Shown here piece by piece: positions 56,892-59,771 of a DNA stretch of 64,000 nucleotides. The notes under the pieces were generated by a model, which made no database searches, was not told the origin of the DNA, and saw nothing but the letters and a program-made list of their open reading frames with translations. Location: contig JAGOAZ010000002.1 in NCBI GenBank assembly GCA_017983675.1, positions 124,001 to 188,000 on the forward strand, given 5' to 3'. The position numbers were made by a program, and so were the translations under genes. Position 1 is the first letter of the stretch. Each line of letters opens with the position of its first letter. Source of the DNA: Fluviicola sp. (GTDB taxonomy: Bacteria; Bacteroidota; Bacteroidia; Flavobacteriales_D; Crocinitomicaceae).

Positions 56892-58466
56892 ATGGCAGAT
56901 GTTAAACCAGCAGAAGTTTCTGCGATTTTAAGAGAGCAATTATCAGGTTTCAGAACTGAAGCTGAATTGCAAGAAGTTGGTACCGTTTTACAAATTGGTG
57001 ATGGTATCGCTCGTGTTTACGGATTGAAAGGTGTTCAATACGGTGAATTGATTGAGTTCGAAGGTGGTTTGCAAGGAATCGCATTGAACTTAGAAGAAGA
57101 TAACGTTGGAGCTGTATTGCTTGGTCGTTCTTCTGCTGTAAAAGAAGGAGATACTGTAAAACGATTAGGTCGCATTGCTTCTGTAAACGTTGGGGAAGGT
57201 TTAGTTGGTCGTGTTATCGACACACTAGGTAACCCAATCGATGGTAAAGGTCCAATTGCTGGTCAATTGTACGAAATGCCAATCGAGCGTAAAGCTCCAG
57301 GAGTTATTTTCCGTCAACCAGTAACTGAGCCTCTTCAAACAGGTATCAAGGCGGTTGATGCGATGATTCCAATTGGACGTGGACAACGTGAGTTAATCAT
57401 TGGTGACCGTCAAACTGGTAAAACAACTGTTGCAATCGATGCAATTATTAATCAAAAAGAATTTTACGATAGAGGGGAACCTGTTTTCTGTATTTATGTT
57501 GCAATTGGACAAAAAGGTTCAACTGTTGCAGGAATCGTTAAGAAATTAGAGGATGCTGGTGCGATGGCTTACACAGTTATCGTTGCTGCAAATGCATCTG
57601 ATCCTGCTCCAATGCAATTTTACGCGCCAATGACAGGTGCTGCAGTAGGTGAGTTTTTCCGTGATTCAGGACGTCCTGCTTTGATCGTATTTGATGATTT
57701 ATCGAAACAAGCGGTAGCTTACCGTGAAGTATCATTGTTGTTACGTCGTCCTCCAGGTCGTGAGGCTTACCCAGGTGACGTTTTCTACTTACACTCTCGT
57801 TTATTGGAGCGTGCTGCAAAAATCATCGCTGATGATACAATTGCATCGCAAATGAACGATTTACCAGAATCGTTAAAAGGAATTGTAAAAGGAGGTGGTT
57901 CATTAACTGCTTTGCCAATTATTGAAACACAAGCGGGTGACGTTTCTGCGTATATCCCAACAAATGTGATTTCAATTACTGATGGTCAAATTTTCTTGGA
58001 AGGTGATTTATTTAACGCAGGTATTCGTCCAGCAATTAACGTAGGTATCTCTGTATCACGTGTTGGAGGAAATGCACAAATTAAATCAATGAAAAAAGTT
58101 GCTGGTACATTGAAATTGGATCAAGCACAATACCGCGAATTGGAAGCATTTGCTAAATTTGGTTCTGACTTAGATGCTGCAACAAAATCAGTATTGGATA
58201 AAGGAGCTCGTAACGTTGAGATTTTGAAACAACGTGAAGGCGATCCATACCCAGTTGAAAAACAAATTGCAATTATCTATGTTGGTACAAAAGGATTAAT
58301 GCAAAATGTACCAGTTGATAAAGTAAAAGCATTCGAAAAAGAATACTTGGATTTCTTAGAAGCTAAACATGCAGATGTATTGGTTCGTTTGAAAGCAGGT
58401 AAATACGAAGATGCAGATACTGATCTTTTAGGAAAAGTAGCGAAAGAAATCGCATCGAAATATTAA
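56892..58466 (+). CDS. atpA: ATP synthase F1 subunit alpha
   Basis: 524 residues. Walker A GDRQTGKT is at 171-178, with the alpha signature [19 protein letters not shown] and the regulatory-site features of the non-catalytic nucleotide-binding subunit. It follows an 88-bp spacer that contains the perfect short hairpin GAAAGCT-G-AGCTTTC. Confidence 0.97.
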
Positions 58467-58474
58467 TTGATTAC

Positions 58475-58502
58475 GAATTTAGAATAACGAATTGAGAATG
58501 AA
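58475..58502. repeat. GAATNNN heptad array, upstream
   Basis: GAAT recurs at exactly 7-bp steps on the plus strand (58475, 58482, 58489, 58496), directly after atpA. Two more units at 58518 and 58525 extend into the four-helix-bundle gene. An inverted array lies on the other side of that gene. Confidence 0.7.
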
Positions 58503-58505
58503 GAG

Positions 58506-58859
58506 ATGATACAGTCTGAATTGAGAATAAATTCTGTAGTTCAAGATAAATCATTTCTTTTCGCAAAATTGATCATACGCTTCTGTTTGAATTTAAAAGA
58601 ACAGAAGCATTATGAGATTAGCGGACAATTAATTCGAAGTGGTACAAGTGTCGGAGCGAACATTCGGGAAGCCCAACGAGCAGAAAGCAAGAAAGATTTT
58701 AAGCACAAACTTAGAATTGCATTGAAGGAAGCAGATGAGACAAAGTACTGGTTAGAGTTAGTTCATTCAGAAATCACTTCAGTAGACAATAATATAGTTG
58801 AATTGAATGAAGAAATTATTAAGCTGTTAGTCGCGATAATTAAAAATACACACGAATAA
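58506..58859 (+). CDS. Four-helix-bundle protein (23S rRNA intervening-sequence/Avd-like family)
   Basis: 117 residues. The family pattern is visible in the N-terminal LIIRFCLNLKEQKHYEISGQL, LIRSGTSVGANIREAQRA and the C-terminal ADETKYWLELVH. Members form pentameric helical bundles; those within rRNA intervening sequences have no established biochemical role, and Avd assists diversity-generating retroelements. No reverse transcriptase is nearby. It sits between atpA and atpG, is not part of ATP synthase, and is flanked by inverted GAATNNN heptad arrays, suggesting later insertion. Confidence 0.85.
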   Translation: MIQSELRINSVVQDKSFLFAKLIIRFCLNLKEQKHYEISGQLIRSGTSVGANIREAQRAESKKDFKHKLRIALKEADETKYWLELVHSEITSVDNNIVELNEEIIKLLVAIIKNTHE

Positions 58860-58868
58860 TAACTCAAT

Positions 58869-58886
58869 ATTCAACATTCTACATTC
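58869..58886. repeat. GAATNNN heptad array, downstream (inverted)
   Basis: ATTC recurs at exactly 7-bp steps (58869, 58876, 58883), which is GAATNNN on the minus strand, between the four-helix-bundle gene and atpG. It mirrors the array at 58475-58502; both end in GAG when read toward the gene's outer side. Confidence 0.65.
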
Positions 58887-58898
58887 AAAATTTGAATT

Positions 58899-59771
58899 AT
58901 GGCTAATTTAAAAGAAATACGCAATCGAATAACTTCAGTGGGATCAACCATGCAGATTACGTCTGCAATGAAAATGGTTTCTGCTGCTAAGTTAAAACGA
59001 GCTCAAGATGCAATTACACAAATGCGTCCTTACGCTGAGAAATTGCAAGAAATTCTTGGTAATTTGAGTGCATCTTTGGATATTTCTGAAAATGCGCTAG
59101 CAGCTGAACGTCCTGCAAACAATGTGTTGGTTATTGCAATTACTTCGAACAGAGGTTTGTGTGGTGGATTCAACAACAACATCATCAAACGAGTAAATCA
59201 ATTGGTGCTGGAAGAATACGCAGGAAGTAATGTTAGCATTTTATGTTTGGGTAAAAAAGCGAAAGATGCTTTCAAACGTTCTGAGATGTATTTCGATATT
59301 GAAGGAACAGGAATTACGGAAGATATTTTTGCTGATTTATCATTTGATAACACTGCATACATTGCAAACCATGCGATGAACCTTTTCTTAAACAAATCGG
59401 TTGATCGTGTAGTAGTAGTTTATAATAGTTTCATAAATGCTGCATCACAAAACGTGAAAGCAGAACAACTATTGCCATTAATTCCAACTGTTCAAGAAGG
59501 AGCTGCTATTGGTGATTATATTTTTGAACCTTCTCAAGAAGAAATCGTAGAAGATTTAATTCCAAAATCATTAAAAATCCAATTATTCAAAGCATTATTG
59601 GATTCGAATGCATCTGAACACGGAGCACGTATGACTGCTATGCACAAAGCAACGGATAACGCAACTGAGTTACAACGTAATTTGAAATTAAGTTATAACA
59701 AAGCGCGTCAAGCAGCAATTACTAATGAAATCTTAGAAATCGTTGGTGGTGCAGAAGCATTGAAAAATTAA
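58899..59771 (+). CDS. atpG: ATP synthase F1 subunit gamma
   Basis: 290 residues. The start LKEIRNRITSVGSTMQITSAMKM (abridged here) with SNRGLCGGFN and the C-terminal RQAAITNEILEIVGGAEAL are diagnostic of the central stalk subunit. Last ATP synthase gene in this operon; atpD (beta) and atpC (epsilon) are not in the window and must lie elsewhere. A terminator follows. Confidence 0.96.
   Translation: MANLKEIRNRITSVGSTMQITSAMKMVSAAKLKRAQDAITQMRPYAEKLQEILGNLSASLDISENALAAERPANNVLVIAITSNRGLCGGFNNNIIKRVNQLVLEEYAGSNVSILCLGKKAKDAFKRSEMYFDIEGTGITEDIFADLSFDNTAYIANHAMNLFLNKSVDRVVVVYNSFINAASQNVKAEQLLPLIPTVQEGAAIGDYIFEPSQEEIVEDLIPKSLKIQLFKALLDSNASEHGARMTAMHKATDNATELQRNLKLSYNKARQAAITNEILEIVGGAEALKN

Follow-up and report, generated by a model that had tools for sequence, protein, structure and literature searches.

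The gene that lies between atpA and atpG in the stretch of Fluviicola sp. DNA analysed here (64,000 nucleotides, hereafter the window) appears to be the core of a small insertion unit some 430 bp long, a reading to which we assign a probability of roughly 0.55. The unit would consist of a four-helix-bundle gene with about five units of 7-8 bp at each end, the second array being inverted relative to the first. Our results suggest that the gene and its borders form one inherited, probably mobile, unit, mobility being what we infer. The presence or absence of the block as a whole, the tracking of the protein by the arrays, the core-spacer structure of the repeats and the matching dispersal of gene-less arrays fit a unit whose protein recognises the arrays at its ends. 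Such recognition of the arrays by the unit's own protein is likewise what we infer from sequence comparisons, in which the arrays seem to track the protein weakly.

The gene (58506..58859, plus strand; 354 bp, 117 aa) encodes a four-helix-bundle/S23-type protein (PF05635, E=8.1e-23; TIGR02436, E=2.5e-27; PDB 2rld, E=5.1e-25) that scores above the curated family cut-offs (81.1 bits against 33.8 for PF05635 and 95.2 against 24 for TIGR02436). The upstream host gene is atpA, encoding the ATP synthase alpha subunit (56892..58466, plus strand; PF00006, PF00306, PF02874), and the downstream one is atpG, encoding the gamma subunit (58899..59771, plus strand; PF00231, E=9e-100). The first-pass annotation had claimed that a gene unrelated to ATP synthase splits atpA from atpG, and the profile matches bear this out, with PF05635/TIGR02436 placed between PF00006/PF00306 and PF00231. 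The upstream array (58473..58505, plus strand; TRF row 58473-58499) is formed by GAATNNN units at 58475, 58482, 58489 and 58496; it reaches the start codon of the gene and overlaps its presumed ribosome-binding region. The downstream array (58864..58898, minus strand; TRF row 58864-58892, period 7) carries the same GAAT core inverted, with ATTC at 58869, 58876 and 58883, and abuts the start codon of atpG. Both arrays were obtained by reading the sequence and by exact pattern matches, and every coordinate previously given for the 7-bp steps of GAAT on the plus strand and, read as ATTC, on the minus strand was exact. As measured by the gap from the atpA stop to the atpG start, the proposed whole unit, array-gene-array, spans 432 bp (58467..58898, plus strand).

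The two window arrays have only the four-base core in common, and their three spacer bases differ. Within the window, the sole zero-mismatch matches of GAATNNNGAATNNNGAAT are those at 58475 and 58482 on the plus strand and at 58869 on the minus strand. Three successive GAATNNN units occur three times in the genome of 2,850,789 bases, always at the borders of this gene, and the reversed control gave 0 matches. Since about 1.8 such triples are expected genome-wide from base frequencies, their number is unsurprising, but their position is not: all three lie no more than 40 bp from the ends of a single 354-bp gene. Over 264 kb of the contig that carries the window, no intergenic run of period 7 other than the downstream array reached the threshold used. 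The window genome has two further copies of the family (three in all), one between the genes of an enoyl-CoA hydratase and a 3-hydroxyacyl-CoA dehydrogenase, and another between those of the succinate dehydrogenase flavoprotein and iron-sulfur subunits; by eye, both are bordered by mirrored repeats of other units (GAGTCAA-like, TTAGT-like). Three copies of the family, compared with the PADLOC anti-phage defence models, gave no match, Rfam gave by E-value only one chance-level miRNA match, below its gathering score, and the sister copy L002 had no match among 50,697 phage records.

Border arrays of 7 or 8 bp are a general property of the four-helix-bundle/S23 family. Profile matches identified 221 copies in 54 of 60 genomes of the window's family, 112 of which were analysed (the higher-scoring listed places, contig ends avoided), 110 of them with full flanks. 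Flanks of 150 bp were compared with 100 Markov shuffles, and a period-7 or -8 array was scored as positive if no shuffle reached its score. Such arrays were found in 102 of 221 flanks (the coincidence with the number of copies is fortuitous), and the control periods 5/6, 9/10, 10/11 and 12/13 gave 1, 6, 2 and 8 positives in the same flanks. Similar results were obtained elsewhere in the phylum (26/56 flanks; control periods, 0-2), in named Bacteroidota records that partially overlap the family set (24/44; controls, 0-1), in other phyla (20/41; control periods, 0-2) and in mostly cyanobacterial plasmids (25/30; controls, 2, 0, 0 and 0). The plasmid set comprised 15 of 22 records, from Nostoc, Calothrix, Anabaena, Pseudanabaena, Geminocystis, Picosynechococcus, Stanieria, Aulosira, Azospirillum and Gemmatirosa, with four Riemerella records, a second Calothrix brevissima record and two partial matches omitted. 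About half of the flanks have no significant array, which counts against an insertion unit.

The borders are also mirrored in pairs: the upstream flank matched its own reverse-complemented downstream flank, with a score of at least 26, in 65/109, 11/28, 12/22 and 8/20 cases in four sets, against 3.5, 1.7, 7.4 and 0.5% of cross-pairs. The expectation that other copies would have GAATNNN borders held for the mirrored arrays and failed for the motif, because GAAT is not a family motif and each copy has its own unit, of 7 or sometimes 8 bp. Period-7 arrays were present in 56/171 spacers beside the gene and in 1/24 other spacers of the same family loci, and in 10/24 against 10/98 at the atp and sdh loci. 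This enrichment was absent from the small phylum set (8/42 beside the gene, 4/16 elsewhere), where period-8 arrays were weakly enriched (8/42 against 2/16). The arrays are thus enriched at the gene, yet also present away from it. Heptad runs in ordinary spacers, which the first-pass annotation had taken as a sign against its reading, do exist in gene-less spacers of related genomes, but they resemble derivatives of the same units, so that this objection holds only by half.

The median length of an arm is 4.9 units (IQR 4.3-7). On the strand that reads inward, G exceeds C at both ends (33 against 7 and 38 against 5 arms, among those that differ). Conserved and free positions can be distinguished within the units, column heterogeneity exceeding the 95% null in 35 of the 103 arrays, out of 113, that had enough mismatches for this analysis. 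The gene is co-oriented with its neighbour in 153/171, 24/24 and 40/42 spacers of the family, atp plus sdh, and phylum loci, respectively. A few copies have long direct repeats in place of arrays, which speaks against an insertion unit; for example, in the MFDFEKL-type clade, L100 (G047) and L106 (G038) are devoid of heptads, and direct hairpin copies of 65 bp (exact) and 59 bp flank the gene. The flanking hairpin of L106 resembles an intrinsic terminator.

Two junctions within the genus show array-gene-array as a single block that is there in some genomes and missing from others. The block fills the thiolase junction in G030; in its place G010 has only 12 bp of spacer, G046 a different repeat and G059 a mirrored array of the AGAC type with no gene. 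The thiC junction of G010 carries a gene with octad arrays, and arrays of this kind are missing there from G030, G046 and G059. The G010 gene at the thiC junction is 70% identical to the G030 gene at the thiolase junction, and their arrays are alike. An empty site in a relative, one mark of a mobile element, is therefore found for these sister copies, and true short spacers (0-18 bp) also occur at the sdhA-sdhB junction. The mirrored borders of other copies and the block presence or absence at the thiolase and thiC junctions lend good support to the proposal that the borders of the window gene mark the two ends of an insertion. Three observations count against it or give it no help: no target-site duplication was seen by eye at these two junctions, no exact unit boundary was found, and the unit encodes no recombinase.

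At the atpA-atpG junction itself, relatives have 404-435 bp with the gene and 22-94 bp without it. The clean empty site for which this junction was to be searched was not found within the genus, where three of five genomes hold a gene-less mirrored array at that place. Gene-less atp spacers, tried as true empty sites, failed as such, 13 of them holding arrays; these arrays are nearer to the arms of gene-bearing atp copies than to those of other junctions (0.326 against 0.162; 12 of 13). Gene presence changes five times on the atpG tree (23 of 30 rows extracted), with no greater clustering than in shuffles, and thus the tree does not separate gene loss that leaves an array from repeated gain. 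Other junctions offered further configurations. Between sdhA and sdhB, L157 (G017) shows a shortened gene remnant between arrays, an apparent intermediate from a gene-bearing to a gene-less unit, and L155 (G014) has a different two-gene insert that resembles a toxin-antitoxin pair of the nucleotidyltransferase and HEPN type. In G046, L282 and L291 carry a G/C-rich repeat (cttcccccttcaaagggggac and similar) at junctions that are empty or filled by the four-helix unit in sister genomes.

As a rule the unit is inherited vertically at fixed junctions, and hence movement is rare, which weighs against an insertion unit. Like genes are mostly found at like junctions (20 copies at the thiolase junction, 11 at sdhA-sdhB and 9 at a third one), and the eight proteins from the atpA-atpG junction form one clade (support 100/98). 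A genome-wide repeat dialect was rejected, since arrays of different copies from the same genome resembled one another no more than random ones did (0.167 against 0.159). Array sequence partly follows the protein, with a modest effect whose overall weakness counts against an insertion unit. Leaving aside copies with shared neighbours, array similarity was 0.15 below 40% protein identity and 0.271 at 60% or more (n=45), with a Mantel p of 0.033 and a permutation p of 0.001 at 55% identity or more. When flanks were compared by alignment the arrays seemed not to follow the protein, whereas the 4-mer comparison of the arrays alone gave this weak but significant signal.

Gene-less arrays are dispersed in some of the genomes that carry the gene. 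In 148 Bacteroidota genomes, the number of genes correlates with the number of matches to four successive GANTNNN units (forward, reverse and reversed-pattern counts summed), with rho 0.63, a partial value of 0.57 on genome size and a within-family permutation p of 0.0005. The median is 1 match in genomes without the gene (n=32; three exceptions with 78, 98 and 188) and 73 in those with at least nine genes, some of these matches lying in the borders of the genes themselves. Dispersed arrays are similar to the borders of copies from their own genome (p 0.0022), as compared in 13 of 15 genomes (G016, with no gene, and G036, with no usable arms, were omitted) after excluding by eye the arrays that plainly border a copy; one G027 array may border an unread copy. 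In 5 of these 13 genomes the dispersed arrays are unlike any sampled gene border of their own, which counts against an insertion unit.

The octad TTGAACWT provides the plainest case of dispersal, with 131 matches in G010, 108 in G046, 2 in G030, 1 in G056 and 0 in the other 56 genomes. G010 has an intact copy whose downstream arm is this octad, and G046 a copy with a stop, at what seems to be the same junction. G030 has a related octad-gene junction and almost no dispersal, which counts against an insertion unit. Dispersal was seen for this octad copy in G010 and G046, and the GAATNNN unit of the window has no dispersed copies in the G000 genome. The gene-less octad sites share structure beyond the array, as indicated by the enrichment of inverted cores (at least two within 110 bases upstream in 20/28 sites, and in 1.2% of random stretches) and of GTTTAA (within 30 bases in 16/28 sites, and in 1.0% of random stretches). 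In the 28 gene-less sites of G010 and G046 the perfect right arm has a period of 8, and in the left arm most inverted cores stand 9 or 18 apart. None of the 28 lies inside an ORF. The array is on the C-rich strand, as judged by GC skew, at 25 of them (p 2.7e-5), and gene orientation does not explain this bias (17/28 and 14/28). The gene-bearing octad site of G010 is oriented the other way round from the gene-less ones, which counts against an insertion unit.

Several other explanations can be considered. That the arrays arose by chance in AT-rich spacers has almost no probability in our estimate: the expected number of GAAT triples would allow it for the motif, but not the arrays at both ends of the gene or their recurrence in other copies, in other phyla and in GC-rich plasmids, and the period controls of the flank and spacer tests led us to reject it. 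Neutral replication slippage with fold-back copying in spacers, the gene being a passive passenger or lying at hot spots, is rather unlikely. It would account for the gene-less arrays that are common in array-rich genomes, 7-bp units have been tied to polymerase slippage in an earlier suggestion (PMC4692102), and the replication-strand orientation could reflect strand-biased growth. Slippage leaves unexplained, however, why the family has repeat borders across phyla, with units of only 7 or 8 bp, why cores are more conserved than spacers and the arrays track the protein, and why one octad is nearly restricted to genomes with the matching gene.

Instead, the two arrays might base-pair in RNA to form a stem around a loop containing the gene, to be excised from the operon transcript by RNase III as an mRNA counterpart of 23S rRNA intervening sequences. 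We consider this unlikely, despite the shared protein family and the Coxiella intervening sequence, in which GACAGAT heptamers immediately precede the S23 ORF and the terminal stem is cut by RNase III (PMC4990558). At two junctions, arms from one genome match each other better than they match those from other genomes (rank about 0.85), and gene-less spacers show register-specific pairing (rank 0.763, se 0.067, n=11; hairpins split at the middle). At gene-bearing loci, on the contrary, permuting the downstream units leaves the arm match unlowered (rank 0.533, se 0.042, n=46): the two arms have the unit in common and not its order, which is irrelevant to pairing. In addition, the window arms match in their GAAT cores only, with mismatched three-base spacers between them, and some copies have direct repeats. 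An RNA stem was dropped as a constraint on the arms after the unit-order test and is retained here as a rival. Still more improbable is a set of regulatory sites, in which a ring protein would wrap a purine-rich RNA array, as the ring-shaped TRAP does, and so tune the translation of its own or the next gene. The upstream array overlapping the start region, the downstream array adjoining the next start codon, the roughly five units per arm and the excess of G over C on the inward strand (33/40 and 38/43 differing arms) would suit such sites, and regulatory roles have been proposed for TAACTGA heptads (PMC4679880). Nevertheless, inversion of the downstream array means that its RNA is the complement, and gene-less arrays are also found between divergent or convergent genes.

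The insertion unit resembles two known systems and fails membership in both. With the 23S rRNA intervening sequences that contain an S23 ORF (Coxiella, Leptospira) it shares the protein family and the arrangement of one small ORF between inverted terminal repeats, and forms without an ORF exist among those of Salmonella. The window unit differs in lying between the protein genes atpA and atpG, not within 23S rRNA, and its ends are tandem arrays whose order, at gene-bearing loci, is not register-complementary as that of a terminal stem would be. RAYT-REPIN systems also have a gene with inverted short-repeat flanks and, as seen here for the octad copy, dispersed gene-less mirrored copies with a replication-strand bias. 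Here, in contrast, the protein is a four-helix bundle, the ends are 7-8 bp tandem arrays and the units vary by copy; PF05635 is the only family match of the window gene, and no HUH/Y1 tyrosine transposase was found. Two sister copies (L001 and L002) match the PHROG family of Avd from diversity-generating retroelements (phrog_3206; 1.8e-9 and 6.2e-4), and a resemblance between PF05635 and Avd has been stated (PMC10053308). The window copy, unlike these, has no phrog_3206 match, and no reverse transcriptase lies beside it, its neighbours being atpA and atpG. In cyanobacterial plasmids, the four-helix gene and its arrays lie between cas6 and cas4 (L382, L384) and between cas10 and a cmr3-type gene (L387), and the listing of the four-helix gene as CRISPR-associated may reflect insertion into cas operons.

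The STRRs of cyanobacteria are heptameric simple repeats and, like those of Xanthomonas, Nostoc and Beggiatoaceae, they share with the present arrays the 7-bp period and the intergenic location. Published units include GGGAATC in Xanthomonas, with 70 and 75 convergent pairs in two species, GGGGATT in Nostoc (PMC4692102) and TAACTGA in Beggiatoaceae (PMC4679880). The difference is that the arrays described here border S23/four-helix genes, in several cyanobacterial genera and beyond. The available portions of those two articles, from which the term 'four helix' is absent, make no link between these genes and the heptads, and no paper joining four-helix/S23 genes with heptad arrays was found in the open-access literature.

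If the gene and its borders are an insertion unit, a pentameric protein would bind the arrays at the two ends of its gene, each subunit taking up roughly one repeat. The solved relatives (2rld, 2gsc) have five chains each, and a Xanthomonas protein of the family has been described as a toroidal homopentamer (PMC4990558), so five 7-base units could be arranged around a five-membered ring. With a median net charge of +2, the proteins of the family are no more than mildly basic, which counts against this reading. Binding would take place on single-stranded DNA exposed at replication forks, to which the replication-strand bias of the octad points, although strand-biased growth of the arrays after insertion would give the same bias. 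IS200/IS605 and REP elements are known to use single-stranded DNA at replication forks. Cutting and joining would be performed by a host or trans-acting enzyme, as we assume; the gene would owe its expression to the host operons, with which it is co-oriented, and gene-less arrays would be non-autonomous derivatives of the units. A wider and distinctly more doubtful possibility is that the S23/four-helix genes found throughout the bacteria form the nucleus of a mobile class that has no transposase, with ends of 7-8 bp arrays, one unit per subunit of the pentamer, that spreads through lagging-strand single-stranded DNA. Part of the intergenic heptads of cyanobacteria, Xanthomonas, Beggiatoaceae and Bacteroidota might then be its gene-less offspring, and the rRNA intervening sequences one of its branches.

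We know of no role for the four-helix-bundle/S23 genes, which are common, as illustrated by the 221 copies in 60 genomes of a single family. Intergenic heptameric repeats have been noted in several phyla with no agreed explanation (PMC4692102; PMC4679880). Through the link between gene and array, the repeats acquire a possible origin and the protein a possible target, and, if mobility is true, these units would represent a class of elements without a recognisable recombinase.
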